From the NCBI RefSeq assembly GCF_001625445.1, contig NZ_LWHG01000029.1:1-64000 (forward strand): a stretch of DNA of 64,000 bases, in the 5' to 3' direction. The notes beneath the pieces were generated by a model, which ran no database searches, had not been told where the DNA came from, and was given only the letters and a program-made list of their open reading frames with translations. Shown here piece after piece: positions 10,880 through 18,409 of this stretch. Within the stretch, counting starts at the first letter, position 1. Every line of letters starts with the position of its first letter. The stretch is from Haladaptatus sp. R4 (GTDB lineage Archaea > Halobacteriota > Halobacteria > Halobacteriales > Haladaptataceae). The translations under genes were made by a program, and so were the position numbers.

Positions 10880-11302
10880 AGCAGTATTCGACAGTGGTTC
10901 TTCCTCGCCGACCATTTGAGCGCCAAAATCGACCATGACTATCATTTCGCTTCCGAACGGGATACCGATTCAAAGCGTCGTCCGAGTCGGGGTACGAAAA
11001 GTGATCACATGAATTGGTTATCTTTCGTCAGCGATTACCCTCTCTTGGAGTTGTACTTTACAGTACTAATTGTGTAATGGTTAATTGAAACTGCCGCGGG
11101 TAGGGTCAGCTATCATCACCCGCAAGCGTCGATCGACACTCCTTCACGGTGTATCCCGTCGAAATCTCCTTCTCGGACTCGATAGATCGAAACGGCGAAT
11201 TTGATATAGCATTATATAATTTATAATCTTCGCGGATGGACGTTTTTGAGCAGTAGCGGGTCTGAAACAACCGATATCTGTAATCCTTCCTTCGGCACAC
11301 GA

Positions 11303-11330
11303 ACTTCCGCTTAGAACCATAAGCGGAAGT
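11303..11330. repeat. 11-base inverted repeat, 6-base loop
   Basis: ACTTCCGCTTA, GAACCA, TAAGCGGAAGT forms a perfect 11-base stem. The right arm TAAGCGGAAGT recurs in direct orientation at 18176-18186, near the other side of the A/T-rich segment. This resembles the end structure of a small mobile element or an element boundary, but no transposase is attached. Confidence 0.5.
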
Positions 11331-11690
11331 ACCACCACCCCGGGACCCCCGAATCGATCTGTGCGCAATCCGTGGTGCGGATTGGGTGTGTTATATATCG
11401 AGTGTTTCGAACGCTTGGCTTGGTGGTCGAAATCGACTGACTCTGATTCCTGCGAGGAATCTAATGGCTCTCGTGGAAGGTATAATTTCGTGTTTGTAGA
11501 GAAAGTACAATTTAATTGGGTGTGTTATTCGTCAGTCCGATCGAGTGCGTGCACTGGCCTGCTGGACTAGGCTGCGGCGAGATTCACGCTTATCCTGGCA
11601 GCCCTCCGGCCTCCGGAGAGGATCGTCACGGCCCGCCAGATAGTTGCGTGGTTCGACAAGAATTATTTGACGCCTCCACAGATACCAATC

Positions 11691-12743
11691 ATGCCTGATT
11701 TCATCACACCTCAGCCTGTCGAACCCGGCGATCAGGTCGCAGTTATCGCACCGGCGTCGAACGCCCCAGAGAGTGCTCGGTTCGTCTATGACCTCGGTCT
11801 CACACGAATGCGTGAAGTCTTCGATCTTGAACCAATCGAGTACCCGACCGCGACTGCCGACCCTGAGTGGCTTGCGGACAATCCAGAAGCGCGCGCTGAA
11901 GATATCATGAGTGCCTTCCGTGATTCTGATATCTCGGCTGTGATTGCTAATATCGGTGGCCATGACCAGCTCACGGTCCTCCCGTATCTCGACGGTGACG
12001 TGCTCCGCAAGCACCCAACGCGATTCTACGGCTGGTCAGACAACACGAATCTAGCGCTGTTCCTCTGGAATCAGGGTATTGTCTCGTACTACGGCGGGTC
12101 AACGCTGCTCGAATACGCAATGGACGGCGAGATGTTCGACTACACCACGGAGTACCTCCGGCGTGCGCTCTTCGAGGATTCCATCGGTGAGTGGACCGAA
12201 GCGGAACTATTCACCGACGAGGCCGGTGATTGGGAGAGCCCCGATTCAGTCGAAACCACGCGCGAGATCGAACAATCTGGTGGTCGAATCTGGCGTGGCG
12301 GCGAAGAAACTGTCTCGGGTCGAATTTGGGGTGGCTGCTATGAGGTCCTCGTCGAGCAGTTCCTCGCCGATCGCTATGTACCCAATCCTGACACATTGAA
12401 CGGCGCTGTTCTTGCGCTCGAAACGAGCGAGCTGATTCCTGACCCAGCCGTCATGCGTGCGAACCTCCGAGCACTCGGCGAACGCGGTCTCCTTGAACGA
12501 TTCGACGGTGTTCTCGTTGGGCGTGCCGCCGCACGCTCACATGCCGAGGACAACCCAGAGGAATGGCGAGCGGGATACCGAGAGCGCCAGCGCGACGCTA
12601 TTACTGACGTTCTCGAGACGTACAACCCGAACGCACCTGCTGTCTTTAATTGCGAGTTTGGACATACGTACCCGACGTGCCCGGTTCCGATCGGCGGTGA
12701 GGTCGAAATAGAACCTTCAACCAGATCAATTCGACTTCTCTGA
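11691..12743 (+). CDS. S66 family peptidase (LD-carboxypeptidase / MccF-like)
   Basis: 350-residue serine peptidase-fold protein. The nucleophile is S116 in FYGWSDNTN, the family hallmark; the later ALETSEL glutamate and FGHTYPTCPV histidine fit the Ser-Glu-His triad. Family members trim murein LD-tetrapeptides or, as MccF, hydrolyse microcin C and give immunity. Archaea lack murein, so a peptide- or nucleotide-peptide-cleaving or detoxifying role is more plausible here, which is inference. The ATG at 11691 is supported by the A/T-rich leader before it. It is the first gene of the A/T-rich island. Confidence 0.85.
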   Translation: MPDFITPQPVEPGDQVAVIAPASNAPESARFVYDLGLTRMREVFDLEPIEYPTATADPEWLADNPEARAEDIMSAFRDSDISAVIANIGGHDQLTVLPYLDGDVLRKHPTRFYGWSDNTNLALFLWNQGIVSYYGGSTLLEYAMDGEMFDYTTEYLRRALFEDSIGEWTEAELFTDEAGDWESPDSVETTREIEQSGGRIWRGGEETVSGRIWGGCYEVLVEQFLADRYVPNPDTLNGAVLALETSELIPDPAVMRANLRALGERGLLERFDGVLVGRAAARSHAEDNPEEWRAGYRERQRDAITDVLETYNPNAPAVFNCEFGHTYPTCPVPIGGEVEIEPSTRSIRLL

Positions 12744-13187
12744 TTGCACGACAGGGTAATGTGCCGGGGTCCTGTGTTTCCTTGTCAGCAGCCACTCCCT
12801 GTTTACAGAATAGAACGGATGACATAGGTTTCTGTTGCGAGTTTCATGTTTAGCGTGTCAACTGTCGTCGATTTCAATGATTGAATTCGGCTGCTCCGAA
12901 CAATCGAGACATAAGCAGTCTGATTTCTGGGATTACGCCCCGTTTCGAGATGACTGATTGATTTAATAACAGAAGTAGAACGAATGACGGCGGTACGATC
13001 GAGTTCTTGAATTTCGCCGATTTAGGCGATTGACTACCGCTGGGCAGTATAAGCGGCAGTGGATCGGCCTTAGAATCCGCACAACAATCTATGCACGGTT
13101 CGTGAAGACAATCATTCATCGGTATGTTAAGAAAATCCTTTACACAGATATATTGCAGAAGCATACAGAGGAGTAGATAAGATTCAG
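12744..13187. other. Gene-free A/T-rich stretch
   Basis: About 440 bases. Open frames on both strands are short and interrupted. Near 12880-13100 there are scraps of plausible protein sequence in shifting frames, which could be a decayed gene, but no family could be named. Confidence 0.3.
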
Positions 13188-13385
13188 ATGTATCGAATAA
13201 TTATGAGGCTGATTGGTCACGTTTTTGTATTTGCAGGAGTTCTGGGAACAGGTTTCGCAATATTGGTCATCGCTATCAATCCAGCCAAGTTAATATCCTG
13301 GATTGCTGGCCTCGTGTGCTTTATAATATTCATCGTAGGATACCAACTCATTAAGTCTCTCAATCAAGTACAGAATCAAACGTGA
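13188..13385 (+). CDS. Small membrane protein, two helices
   Basis: 65-residue protein with two hydrophobic segments (about residues 8-29 and 34-54) and a polar tail ending QVQNQT. No family is recognised. It lies alone between the S66 peptidase and the ABC-2 ATPase, 256 bases before the latter. Small two-helix proteins beside ABC exporters are sometimes immunity or accessory proteins, which cannot be concluded here. Confidence 0.45.
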   Translation: MYRIIMRLIGHVFVFAGVLGTGFAILVIAINPAKLISWIAGLVCFIIFIVGYQLIKSLNQVQNQT

Positions 13386-13641
13386 CAGGTGTTGAATAAC
13401 GGTAGTTTGGCTGTTGTCGAGGTTGTGGTCTAGCGGCCATCGCCATGTTGTTGGCCTGCTGCTGTTTACCTATGAACTTTTGGTACTTACTGAACTCTAT
13501 GTCTGACGTACGATCTCAGACTGTCTGTCGTCATCGTACTTCCTCAACAGAGTAGACTGTAAAGTCTCACTACCTCCAGGGTAACGCTGTTCGGACAACA
13601 GAGATAGTCACATTTTTTTAAATCCCCTACTATCATATAAT

Positions 13642-14553
13642 ATGTCTATGATCAGTACTACTAATCTCACAAAATCATATAATAACAAAACAGTTGTTGA
13701 CGATCTCTCACTCACCATCGAACGTGGAGAAGTGTATGGTTTCCTGGGACCGAACGGAGCAGGAAAATCGACCACCATCGATATGCTAATGGATTATACA
13801 CGACCCACCAGTGGTAGTGCAACAGTCTTTGACCTCGATGTGCAGACAGAGTCTGAAACGATCCACTCACGAACTGGTATTCTCCCAGACCGATTTGGCG
13901 TGTATCAGCGGCTCACAGGACGCGAACACGTCAAATACATTCTCGACGCAAATGATGATCATGACGATATAGACCTCATCTTTGACCGAGTTGGACTCCA
14001 CAGCGCAGCCGATGAGTATGCTAGTGACTACTCAAAAGGTATGCAACAGCGCCTCGGGCTCGCAATGGCTATCGCGGGGAAGCCAGATCTGCTCATTCTC
14101 GATGAACCATTCTCCGGTCTTGACCCGCATGGTGTTCGTCTTGTCCGAGAGATTGTCGCTGACGAGCGCGATCGCGGTGCGACTGTCTTGTTTTCATCTC
14201 ACGTTCTCGATCAAGTTGAACGCGTCTGCGACCGAGTTGGATTACTCGACAATGGTACACTTCTTTTCGAAGGAACTCCCACAGAACTCCGGAGAACTGT
14301 TAGAACTGAACGACGGCTATCAATCGACACGCCACTCCCAGAGAAACTATATCAGCGTCTCGAAGATCTGGGATCAGTCACTGAAATTGACGAGAAAGAG
14401 ACTGGAGTAACAATCACCTGCCAACCTGAAGACCAGTTCAGAATCCTTGAATTAATCTGTGAGTTCGATCTTTCTGTTTCTGACTTCCACATCGAAAAAG
14501 AGACTATTGAAGATGCTTTCATCATGCTGGCCGATAATACACCCGAGAATTAA
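13642..14553 (+). CDS. ABC-2 type transporter ATP-binding protein
   Basis: 303-residue ATPase with Walker A GPNGAGKST at about residues 35-43, signature YSKGMQQRLGLA, Walker B ending ILDEPFSGLDP and switch histidine in SSHVLD. The C-terminal extension of about 90 residues is typical of exporters of antibiotics, peptides or lipids (CcmA/NatA group). A T-run with TTTAAAT about 20 bases before the ATG fits a leaderless start. It converges with the permease gene, and their stop codons share the four bases TTAA at 14550-14553. Confidence 0.88.
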   Translation: MSMISTTNLTKSYNNKTVVDDLSLTIERGEVYGFLGPNGAGKSTTIDMLMDYTRPTSGSATVFDLDVQTESETIHSRTGILPDRFGVYQRLTGREHVKYILDANDDHDDIDLIFDRVGLHSAADEYASDYSKGMQQRLGLAMAIAGKPDLLILDEPFSGLDPHGVRLVREIVADERDRGATVLFSSHVLDQVERVCDRVGLLDNGTLLFEGTPTELRRTVRTERRLSIDTPLPEKLYQRLEDLGSVTEIDEKETGVTITCQPEDQFRILELICEFDLSVSDFHIEKETIEDAFIMLADNTPEN

Positions 14554-16448
14554 CCTAAATCGCTACGGGAGAATACAAGAACTGAGAAGATCTGCGAGAC
14601 TCCAAGCAAGAGCACCAAGCCAACCATGGTCAGAATTGGATGAAGGAACCAAACCGGTATGTCTGTCCCAAATACAGACCTCACGGTTGTGATATTCGAG
14701 ATGGTGGATGGCTGTAAAACATCAGAGATGACAAATAGAGCAGTTCCACTAGAATTTGGGACACCAAGTAGCCAGTTCGTGAGAACTCGGTACAAGTTCT
14801 GCGGTAACAACCATTTAAGTAGGAAATAAGCGGGATCATTTGGTGGGTGAAGAAGATTAACCGCGTGCCCGGTTACGATACTATAAAATGAATTTATTAC
14901 TGGCTGCCAGTAAAACGGGAGAGCAACGAATGCAAATGCCAACCCACCAACGACAACCCGGTGTCGGCTAAGTGTAGAGATTGCAACTCCAACAGCAGCC
15001 ATAGCAAACAAAAATACTACGCTCGCCGCGAGAAATCCGAGTAACTCCACTAGGGGAACAGCACCATACTGAGGAGCTGCGACGGCACAGGTGAGTACAA
15101 TTGCTATCAGCACAGGAACCGAGAACGCAATTGTACGTCCTATAAGAATACCAACGATAACGTCTACACGCGATGCTTTTGTTCCCGCTGTCAAGCGAAT
15201 ACTTCCTGAGCGACGCTCTTCGGACAGTGCACGGAATGTGAAAAACACGACTCCACTACCTGCGAACAATGTAATTCCTGGTGTTTGTAAAACAGCCAAT
15301 GGGACAAGTGAACCAAGATAGTTTCTGACGATATCTTGAACAGCAAGACTGGAGATGCTGATTACGAAAATGAGAACGCCGAGGAGCCAGATGCCCGGTG
15401 AACGTGAGAGGATACGGAACTCACGTTGTGCGATTGACTGCCATCGTCCGGGAAGCCGAGAGGAGAGTTCTCTTCTACCAACGATGCTCCCAAAAGAAAT
15501 CCAGTTAGACGGACGACTCCACAGGATTTGCAGTCGACGAATCCAGTTAGATTCTTTATCGTGTTGGACAGTGAGTGATCCATTCTCAAACGCTCGAAGT
15601 GAGAATAGTACTAACACGAATGGCCAACCAACAAGGGGTATAAGAGAGAACCACGGTGCGAGATAGATAGGTTGTGACTCTCCTCTCGCAACTTCGTTTA
15701 ACGGCCCAGTAAGTTGAGTAACGGCACTATCCGTTCCGACTGGCACGTTGAGAACCCAATTAGTGAGAACGTAGTAGGCATCATTCGGTGACAATCGAGA
15801 AGCCATCTCGAAGATGTTCGGATATCGTAGACTATTCCCGGGGACAGTGCCCGTGAATATGTTCCAAAGAAAGGTCACCATCAAGTCGCTCCAGAAGAGC
15901 AACCCAGCGAGCACGGTGACTCCTACGAGGACTGCCGATTGAACCGATGAGGTGGCAAGCGTCGAGATCGAGACGATGATAGAGACAACTGCGAAAGTGT
16001 ATATTAGTGCCACTACCACGAATTCAAGGGCGATTCCAACGGAAAACCTATGCAATGAGAATATATCGACGACGACGACGAAAATCGTTCCAAAGATAAC
16101 CGGTGTGAATGTTGCAGCGGTCTGTCCAACGATTTTTCCGAGGACGATATCCGAGCGGCTAAGACGGGTTCCCGCGAGAATACGAATCGTTCCGGACTCC
16201 CGCTCGCCAATGATCGTACGATACCCAAATGTCGCTGCAACGAATGGTATTAATAAAGCAATTGTCCCCTGAACGTCTGCAATAGGAGTTGCCCCACCGA
16301 GTATCTGGACAGTCGTTGGCCGTAATGAAGTTGTGATCAATCCTATAGAGAAAGCAATAACGGAGACGATTATAAACAGTCGTCGACTAAGAATATTTTG
16401 GTACTCTCTTCGTGAAACCGAGAGTAGTTTGGTAAATTGTACATGCAT
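14550..16448 (-). CDS. ABC-2 type permease, duplicated two-domain protein
   Basis: 632-residue polytopic membrane protein made of two homologous halves. Both halves show the same order: basic N-terminus (SVSRREYQNI; AQREFRILSR), first helix, a GERESGTIR-type motif (GERESGTIRILAGT; EERRSGSIRLTAGT), a second loop GKIVGQT/GILIGRT, then four more helices and an NDAYYVLTNW/NLYRVLTNW repeat. One chain could thus form the whole membrane channel for the ATPase encoded opposite. Duplicated ABC-2 permeases are known in haloarchaea, but the cargo is unknown. Codon use is A/T-richer than in flanking genes. Confidence 0.82.
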   Translation of the reverse strand: MHVQFTKLLSVSRREYQNILSRRLFIIVSVIAFSIGLITTSLRPTTVQILGGATPIADVQGTIALLIPFVAATFGYRTIIGERESGTIRILAGTRLSRSDIVLGKIVGQTAATFTPVIFGTIFVVVVDIFSLHRFSVGIALEFVVVALIYTFAVVSIIVSISTLATSSVQSAVLVGVTVLAGLLFWSDLMVTFLWNIFTGTVPGNSLRYPNIFEMASRLSPNDAYYVLTNWVLNVPVGTDSAVTQLTGPLNEVARGESQPIYLAPWFSLIPLVGWPFVLVLFSLRAFENGSLTVQHDKESNWIRRLQILWSRPSNWISFGSIVGRRELSSRLPGRWQSIAQREFRILSRSPGIWLLGVLIFVISISSLAVQDIVRNYLGSLVPLAVLQTPGITLFAGSGVVFFTFRALSEERRSGSIRLTAGTKASRVDVIVGILIGRTIAFSVPVLIAIVLTCAVAAPQYGAVPLVELLGFLAASVVFLFAMAAVGVAISTLSRHRVVVGGLAFAFVALPFYWQPVINSFYSIVTGHAVNLLHPPNDPAYFLLKWLLPQNLYRVLTNWLLGVPNSSGTALFVISDVLQPSTISNITTVRSVFGTDIPVWFLHPILTMVGLVLLLGVSQIFSVLVFSRSDLG

Positions 16449-16667
16449 CCTTCACGGTTAGAACCTTCTCCTGATCGCTTAAATCTGTCCTTCCAGAATG
16501 TTGAATGAGTATGAGATCTAGTCTATCAAAAACCAATCCTTATTCTTGTCCATATTATGTCCTCTTTGAGTAATAATAGAATGCACGAGTGTCATATTAT
16601 ATAGTATTTATTTTTATTCAATAGAAAAATATTATGCGATCTCGATAATAATAGAATTTTGCAGTCT

Positions 16668-17330
16668 ATGACGAAAGATAAACGAGATCAACTGAATAGA
16701 CGAAACGTAGTTAAAGGTCTTGGAGTTACGGCTAGCATCGGTCTACTTGGCGGTTTGAGTAGTGCAACGTCCGGTCAAGATGACGCAGTTTCGGCCGATA
16801 TGGTCGTTGAAGACAAGCCCAACATGGTCGATGAGTTCGTGACGCGGTCGCTTCAACAGGGAGAAACCGATAGTGTCGTCAAAGCTTACAGTGAATTGGA
16901 CGAAAAGCAACTCGAATTGGTGCGAGAGGCATACGAGCGAGTCACGACAACGGAGATCAGCTCGGAGAATGCGATTACTCCCGAATACATTCCCATCTCA
17001 CCTAGCGTGTCGTACACACATAAGATAAAGGAAACGAACACGATAATTTGGAGGGCATCCATGACTCTCGATTGCCACTATTACCCTAGTGATAATAATG
17101 TCTCTTTTAATTCGCTTTCCTCAAACGGGAATGCCCCGAACTCTCTGTGGCATTACAAAGGAATAGATTATTCAAATGTGGATACTGCTGGGGCCGTTGA
17201 TGCAAAGCGGAAGTTACGGTTCAGCCACTCGGTTGCAGGACAGCATATATCCACGAATCAAGCAATATTAGAGATTGTTGCACACAATAACGGGAACATC
17301 AATAAAAGTGCAAATCGGAAAGTTCTCTAA
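16668..17330 (+). CDS. Tat-secreted protein of unknown function
   Basis: 220 residues. A twin-arginine signal (NRRNVVKGLG) is followed by a hydrophobic Gly/Ser/Leu stretch and a likely cleavage site near SGQ, with no lipobox cysteine, so release to the medium is expected. The mature part has an acidic helical first half and a Ser/Asn/Tyr-rich, probably beta-rich second half with a single cysteine (DCHYY). No domain recognised. The start MTKDKRDQ was preferred over a TTG nine bases upstream. It is divergent from the ABC-2 permease and could be its neighbour by function, but Tat substrates do not need an ABC exporter. Confidence 0.6.
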   Translation: MTKDKRDQLNRRNVVKGLGVTASIGLLGGLSSATSGQDDAVSADMVVEDKPNMVDEFVTRSLQQGETDSVVKAYSELDEKQLELVREAYERVTTTEISSENAITPEYIPISPSVSYTHKIKETNTIIWRASMTLDCHYYPSDNNVSFNSLSSNGNAPNSLWHYKGIDYSNVDTAGAVDAKRKLRFSHSVAGQHISTNQAILEIVAHNNGNINKSANRKVL

Positions 17331-17449
17331 TACAAGCATAGGTAGACAATCTAGACTTCACAGGTAATCATATAGATAAAAATTACTTTTCTCACACAAT
17401 AGTGAGCCGGGCTCTGTCTAGTTTAGCTCGTCCTCAAGAGATGTACGGC

Positions 17450-17830
17450 CATCGAACGATTGGCGGTTCTAGTAATGCCCAAATTGTTCAAGCCACCGCT
17501 GGACACTTGACCGACTGCTCACCCACAATGTATGGAGGCGGTCGATTTGCTGTTTGAGCGTGTAAAACCACTTCGATCCGCTTTCGCTCTATATAGTCGA
17601 GCCGGCTACTCAATTCATTCAAATGATTGCAGTCCGATAGCCGTAGCCATCGACGAGAAACAGAGCGTCCGAAAGATCGTATTTCTCAGTCAATCCAGTT
17701 AGAAACGCAGCCGTCGAGTTACTCCCATGCCGATCAAACACGTCAATACTGAGCAGCAGCTTTGTTTCGGTGCCTGTTGCACTCTGTGGTGAACGAGCAG
17801 CCACAACATGAAATCCATCAAAAGTGACTG
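17450..17830 (-). pseudogene. Transposase remnant (IS6-like, DDE C-terminal part)
   Basis: Minus-strand translation gives ETKLLLSIDVFDRHGSN and then DALFLVDGYGYRTA, followed in a shifted frame by KWFYTLKQQIDRLHTLW and VQRWLEQFGHY. This order matches the catalytic region and tail of haloarchaeal IS6-like DDE transposases. The frame is broken after YRTAII, and a TAG interrupts the terminal HYYN-type motif, so the gene is dead. Terminal inverted repeats were not identified. It marks past mobile-element activity in the A/T-rich island. Confidence 0.65.
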
Positions 17831-18175
17831 GAACATAATGTTCAGGTCAGAAACCAGAACTGCCGGCAGTAGCAAGGGTACTGCGCGTATTTAAAAGACC
17901 GTTCATCCACACCCGCTTAGTGCAACATGAGGCAGTGAAACAAATAGACCCTGATCAATCAAGCGCGGGTAGACCACCCCCGAGACTCCCCTGGATTCTG
18001 GGACTACAGAGGGCGGTAAGTCTCGCAAACATCCTACCTGGAACCATCGATTTAGTATAGAATCTTAACTAGACACCATCGTGATTCAGCGCGACGTATA
18101 ATTACGAAGAACTAAGAAAAGTAATGAATGTGCCTATTTCTATTCATCATGAAGTTGCTCTTCTGCCTGATTTGA

Positions 18176-18186
18176 TAAGCGGAAGT
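18176..18186. repeat. Copy of hairpin arm TAAGCGGAAGT
   Basis: An 11-base exact match, in the same orientation, to the right arm of the inverted repeat at 11303-11330. It lies close to where base composition returns to the genomic average. It could be a boundary mark of the island, but an 11-mer can recur by chance. Confidence 0.3.
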
Positions 18187-18409
18187 GATTTCGAGCGGAA
18201 CGGTGCCTTCATCGAATCACGAAACCAGTCCCTCCGTAGCGAGCGGGCTATCTCAGAAACTCACGAGGAGAAATGAGTTCGATGATCGCGTGGGAACGAT
18301 CACAGACAGGGTCAGGATAAAGTTAAAGAGCGGGTGTGATTGTACTACGAAGAAATCGTGTATGTTTATTCCGTTCAGAGATCGTAAGGGCTATAGAAAC
18401 GAGTGCGAG

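Follow-up and report, generated by a model that had tools for sequence, protein, structure and literature searches.

Just over 17 halocins have been reported; HalH4, HalC8 and HapP are secreted as precursors and activated by proteolysis, extracellular serine proteases being the activating enzymes (PMC12893001). HalC8 carries its own immunity segment according to Sun et al. (2005), as cited in PMC6759562. Self-immunity can also be provided by transporters of the LanFEG type, which are also present in non-producers and for which LanI and NukH act as substrate-binding partners (PMC4239024). The locus described here belongs to Haladaptatus sp. R4 and lies within the first 64,000 nucleotides of contig NZ_LWHG01000029.1 (assembly GCF_001625445.1); this whole stretch, one end of a 426-kb contig, is referred to as the window. 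The locus consists of three genes encoding an ATP-binding cassette (ABC) ATPase of the ABC-2 type, a fused ABC-2 permease pair and a protein with a twin-arginine translocation (Tat) signal (Table 1).

We favor, with modest confidence, the interpretation that these genes form a mobile cassette for a halocin-like protein antibiotic and a LanFEG-like self-immunity transporter. In this scenario the Tat pathway would secrete a two-domain precursor made up of an acidic three-helix domain, a flexible linker and an eight-strand beta domain. The precursor would be released from the cell, and its beta domain, which an extracellular serine protease may set free, would act on related haloarchaea, while the ATPase and the fused permease pair, residing in the producer's membrane, would remove the effector and thereby confer self-immunity, as LanFEG does. 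We assign the roles in this way because secretion followed by activation through extracellular serine proteases is established for halocin precursors, which suggests a toxin precursor, and because the Tat protein has a Tat signal of its own, so that the ABC-2 transporter is not needed for its export. Self-immunity is then the more economical role to infer for the transporter, and its composition of one ATPase and two permeases, as in LanFEG, together with its exchangeable partners, also points to immunity.

The cassette and its transporter

The closest same-genus match to the window is contig NZ_JAJFAY010000011 of Haladaptatus sp. DYF46 (locus L013). When the two were compared by blastn, a single collinear block of 3.95-3.96 kb was found at 86% identity, abrupt at either end and containing only the ATPase gene, the opposite-strand permease gene, the divergent Tat gene and the intergenic regions. 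An S66 peptidase gene and a gene for a 65-amino acid (aa) protein both lie beyond the ends of the block. The ratios of nonsynonymous to synonymous substitution rates (dN/dS, NG86) between the window and DYF46 copies are 0.08 for the ATPase, 0.20 for the permease and 0.11 for the Tat gene, and all three genes are therefore maintained as working genes under purifying selection. The cassette is a compact, mobile and maintained unit that was recently imported. No convincing terminal repeats of the cassette were found, and a comparison for an empty site found no collinear relative without the island, the flanks being mosaic. The neighbors of the block in DYF46 differ from those in the window and are a PIN-domain-like gene, an integrase and an acyl-CoA dehydrogenase fragment. 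Repeats resembling a CRISPR (clustered regularly interspaced short palindromic repeat) array, with the translated repeat YRRTVVGLK, occur at L013:2442-2897, some 4 kb away from the cassette of DYF46, where they follow a gene for a Cas3-like helicase. Within the window, a 22-nt motif containing TCATATwATA is present at 13621-13642 and 13663-13684, at the ATPase start, and at 16580-16601 in the permease/Tat intergenic region; it is possible that this is a promoter element common to the two places.

The initial annotation of this region, made from sequence alone, had proposed a horizontally acquired defence, toxin-export or competition module. Acquisition and a competitive role fit the cassette as delimited here, while the gene list and the export function do not. 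Two other readings were considered and set aside: PADLOC returned only generic ATPase matches for an anti-phage defence system, and for a viral origin there was no relative in IMG/VR and no significant match in BFVD.

With regard to the transporter, the ATPase scored 213.6 bits against the NCBIfam model drrA and 172 bits against galliderm_ABC (the lantibiotic-protection model TIGR03740, cut-off 309.75 bits), both below cut-off. It appears to work like LanF but misses the curated cut-off, and is therefore not assigned to that family. The permease is internally duplicated, as had been noted initially, with 12 predicted transmembrane (TM) helices arranged as 6+6 and halves that are approximately 30% identical. 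In L014 and L015 the Tat gene is followed by permease A, the ATPase and permease B, with two separate permease genes, and in L016 and L017 by the fused permease and then the ATPase. Given the split permeases in L014 and L015, the duplicated permease of the window is a fusion of two partners, and the window transporter, like LanFEG, comprises an ABC-2 ATPase and two distinct ABC-2 permeases. Pairs of this ABC ATPase and permease without a Tat gene are frequent and occur in many genomes and on plasmids. About 5 kb from one such orphan pair, on plasmid PHS3 of Halobacterium salinarum R1, there is a gene annotated as encoding a 'halocin C8-like domain' protein (L050:14394-15155, + strand).

Table 1. 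Coordinates of the cassette, its surroundings and selected partner genes. Positions without a locus prefix are those of the window.
Feature	Position	Strand	Remarks
Transferable cassette, ABC + permease + Tat gene	13518..17461	.	blastn vs Haladaptatus sp. DYF46 L013:6851-10800
ABC-2-type ATPase, 303 aa, DrrA/LanF-like	13642..14553	+	Pfam ABC_tran, weak DrrA1-3_C; first ATG 13642 or 13648
Fused ABC-2 permease pair, 632 aa, 6+6 TM	14550..16448	-	Pfam ABC2_membrane_2 in two stretches; TM prediction
AT-rich divergent intergenic region, permease/Tat gene	16449..16658	.	conserved in L013
Tat-secreted protein, 223 aa from TTG	16659..17330	+	predicted three-helix domain ~41-95, beta domain 96-221; candidate halocin precursor
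S66 peptidase, MccF/LD-carboxypeptidase-like	11667..12743	+	both Pfam S66 domains; outside cassette
Two-TM protein, 65 aa, GC 39%	13188..13385	+	outside block common with DYF46
IS6-family transposase remnant, 61 aa	17619..17804	-	NCBIfam transpos_IS6 E 3.8e-5; immediately right of cassette
Tat-signal proteins, ~150 aa	L105:6051-6491	-	
	L106:6387-6845	-	
	L111:6147-6620	-	
	L113:6778-7254		
Tat-signal serine proteases with GDSGGP	L061:4355-5479	+	beside members of both Tat families
	L017:8553-9683	+	

The Tat protein family

By sequence alone, five real relatives of the window Tat protein were found (L013-L017, one a fragment) in genomes G003 (twice), G238, G155 and G110, matches that covered only the signal peptide having been discarded. 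The start shared with L013, ATG 16668, is more likely to be used than the TTG of Table 1. The protein occurs sporadically, with matches in 3 of 59 relatives, one of them to the signal peptide only. A search outward from the transporter revealed a second Tat family beside the same transporter (L052, L053, L061, L065 and L066), and in a profile comparison the two families align over 207 columns (98.3% probability, E 1.1e-14). Searching with the second family added about two dozen divergent members at E < ~1e-8 among 391 haloarchaeal genomes. The RR motif is present in 30 of the 31 Tat members, the exception being a truncated fragment, and none of the 31 has a lipobox or any other visible anchor, so the proteins would be released from the cell. 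To judge from these predicted signals, the family consists of secreted haloarchaeal proteins, as halocins do. No Pfam or NCBIfam family matched the superfamily beyond the signal peptide, and sequence homologues in the PDB likewise matched the signal peptide only. Judged by these searches, the superfamily is sporadic, haloarchaeal and unnamed in Pfam and NCBIfam. A 2019 survey in mBio reportedly covers archaeal antimicrobial peptides and polymorphic toxins, and an earlier description of the family there is possible.

A third family with a Tat signal, and with a hydrophobic C-terminal hairpin, was also encountered (L058:4617-5528, +; L126:686-1471, +; L127:4761-5552, -). Its L058 and L126 members are 34% identical over 95 aa, and the L058 gene has the same ABC/permease pair at a distance of 0.9 kb and small TM proteins nearby. 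This is possibly another halocin family.

The Tat gene and the transporter are linked across genera. In all five close relatives (L013-L017) the Tat gene has genes for an ATPase of the ABC type and for an ABC-2 permease directly beside it, and the same pair lies within ~3 kb of 8 of the 24 distant members, defined as second-family profile matches outside its seed (L100, L101, L102, L104, L107, L108, L110 and the L062 fragment). If ~2.7% per site, a rough figure obtained from the number of transporters per genome, is taken as background, the probability of such linkage is ~1e-8 for the close and ~1e-7 for the distant members; the latter value is optimistic, as a few of the loci are near-duplicates, L100 and L101 among them. 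This tight linkage, and the precedent of LanI and NukH, which bind substrate for LanFEG transporters (PMC4239024), are also what would be expected if the Tat protein were an exported immunity or binding accessory that helps the transporter capture a foreign antimicrobial, in which case the cassette would serve resistance only. We regard this as unlikely: a protein lacking lipobox and visible anchor would escape into the medium, the transporter is missing from half of the distant members, and the linked transporter is also found alone.

Other partners were found where the transporter is missing. A small protein with 2-4 TM helices lies beside 10 of the 16 members without a transporter, as compared with 6 of 46 background small genes further away; small TM proteins in the place of the transporter are expected if immunity proteins are exchangeable. 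Most of these members sit in patches with a low GC content at third codon positions (GC3, 0.3-0.5) amid genes at 0.7-0.9. At several loci without the ABC transporter, a smaller Tat-signal protein of ~150 aa is encoded directly after the candidate toxin gene (Table 1); it may be a secreted immunity protein or one part of a two-component toxin. Secreted serine proteases with the GDSGGP motif are encoded next to the Tat gene at L061 and L017 and ~3 kb from it at L016, the family matches being weak; the L017 protease gene runs into a copy of the Tat protein that is truncated.

A non-toxic role in the envelope or in stress, in which the Tat protein would be the surface or chaperone partner of a transporter for lipids or small hydrophobic compounds, must also be weighed. 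DrrA-type ABC-2 transporters are numerous (11-23 ATPases per genome at E<1e-30) and many have other purposes, which speaks for such a module. It is rendered improbable by the very patchy distribution and cassette-like transfer, by the exchangeable membrane partners and by the existence of truncated Tat copies (L017, L062, L104 and L110). Nor did we find evidence that the secreted protein belongs to a housekeeping surface family, a finding that would have spoken against the module initially proposed.

The two Tat families were modelled with AlphaFold2, each from its own alignment. The models have mean pLDDT (predicted local distance difference test) values of 73 and 77, with ~90-95 in the second-family beta domain, and show the same order of elements: a disordered signal, three helices and eight strands. 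A charge split between the helical and beta domains is clear in the window protein but is not general in the family. No Foldseek match to the PDB reached E 1e-3 with either model. The top VIA match of both was Zea/lmo2686 (4k15), with Z 8.7 over 101 residues and 8.3 over 94 (root mean square deviation 3.3), and the second was BAS0735 (3c5p; Z 6.7 and 6.6). Of the leukocidin/alpha-haemolysin beta-pore toxins, which have a leukocidin-type beta-sandwich, leukocidin F (1pvl, Z 6.0) and 3anz (Z 4.5) matched the second-family model only, at values that unrelated folds also reach. A lactococcin-972-like bacteriocin, with no Pfam or NCBIfam match and none among the fold matches, was set aside as less likely. 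The recurrence of 4k15 as top match for two independent models raises the alternative of extracellular nucleic acid binding by the beta domain, as might be expected from Zea of Listeria, a secreted hexameric RNA-binding protein (PMC6907008), with the transporter being functionally unrelated. This is highly improbable given an identity of 9-13%, Z values just above chance level, which make the match a lead only, and the lack of a Foldseek match under E 1e-3. Moreover, we know of no helical domain or ABC-2 partner of Zea, which also counts against it.

Several observations weigh against a halocin-like antibiotic with its own immunity transporter: (i) Pfam and NCBIfam scans gave no match between the Tat members and any known halocin or bacteriocin model; (ii) the transporter is missing beside about half of the distant Tat members; (iii) the window holds no trypsin-like protease beside the cassette; (iv) the closest fold neighbor, Zea, is not a bacteriocin; and (v) the beta domain is neither consistently basic nor consistently amphipathic across members. 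The active part could be either domain, as HalH4 and HalC8 use the C-terminal part and HapP the N-terminal helices. More tentatively, and at less than even odds in our judgment, the Tat proteins may form an archaeal superfamily of protein antibiotics, each with a Tat signal, a helical pro-domain and a beta effector, in small cassettes scattered over the haloarchaea, with exchangeable immunity (an ABC-2 pump or a small TM protein) and sometimes an activating protease of their own. Such a superfamily would be the archaeal counterpart of bacteriocin-immunity cassettes and is possibly membrane-active. If the halocin-like interpretation holds, a large and hitherto unnamed family of candidate protein antibiotics from haloarchaea, along with the immunity genes predicted to go with them, would become accessible by sequence, with strong family matches in roughly two dozen of the 391 surveyed genomes, and toxin-immunity exchange in archaea would become directly testable in standard haloarchaeal strains.

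The AT-rich region and the S66 peptidase

All of the genes listed by the initial annotation were found: the S66 peptidase, the two-helix protein, the ABC-2 ATPase, the permease, the Tat protein, which does lack a known domain, and the dead transposase, which is an IS6-type remnant. The proposed fall in composition between about 11.0 and 18.4 kb is real, but its left edge has to be moved, as the trough begins at ~12.75 kb. GC content is 46.0% at 12750-18400 compared with 59.8% across the window, and the lowest-GC 5.6-kb stretch starts at 12801 (45.9%); past 24 kb, the standard deviation of GC among 5.6-kb stretches is only 1.7%. By gene, GC is 47.5% for the ABC ATPase, 47.7% for the permease and 45.7% for the Tat gene. 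The 65-aa two-TM protein is possibly a second or leftover protein of the immunity type.

The S66 gene, at 57.4% GC and GC3 0.60, lies outside the deep trough. It does encode an MccF-like peptidase, as claimed, with an intact triad (Ser124/Glu253/His333) and a sequence nearest to MccC/MccF-like structures, and it is situated 0.9 kb upstream of the ATPase gene. These features would suit a five-gene module in which S66 gives MccF-like immunity to an exported peptide, as first suggested, but we give this very little credence. The GC of the gene differs, it lies outside the block common with DYF46, and S66 is an enzyme common among haloarchaea, with homologues in 39 of 59 relatives; on these grounds we rejected S66 as a part of the module. 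The nearest relative (84% identical), in L171 from another family, has no such transporter or Tat gene adjoining it, and a second copy, 53% identical, is present on contig C21 of the same genome. Linkage in other haloarchaea was therefore confirmed for the ABC, permease and Tat genes and not for S66. In the window the S66 gene adjoins genes for an IclR regulator and a creatininase, and one whose sequence indicates a substrate-binding protein; from these neighbors a role in peptide utilisation is more likely.

Comparison with described systems

The window S66 enzyme is a true MccF-like peptidase in its intact triad, but, in contrast to what an MccF-type immunity would imply, it does not lie within the mobile cassette. 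Zea and BAS0735 are the top fold neighbors of the beta domain in the models of both families; they differ in being bacterial, in having 9-14% identity and no sequence similarity, and in that the aligned part is without the helical domain.

Among the halocins, HapP (HFX_0892) of Haloferax mediterranei, compared by description, is a secreted precursor with N-terminal helices and activation by an extracellular serine protease, as proposed for the Tat protein. In HapP, however, it is the N-terminal 45 aa that carry the activity, and the paper mentions no linked ABC transporter. HalC8 and HalH4 are haloarchaeal secreted precursors from which proteolysis gives an active C-terminal fragment (PMC12893001), and a comparable cleavage may occur in the cassette protein, which is set apart from them, by description and by family scans, in its predicted helical and beta domains. 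HalC8 also has its own immunity segment, whereas in the cassette the transporter is the proposed immunity determinant.

The cassette differs from LanFEG systems in that it is archaeal, its permeases are fused into a 12-TM protein, its ATPase falls under the galliderm_ABC cut-off and its partner is a folded protein of ~190 aa, not a lantibiotic. What the two have in common is a transporter of the ABC-2 subfamily with one ATPase and two different permeases, located beside a secreted candidate antimicrobial and also met without its secreted partner.

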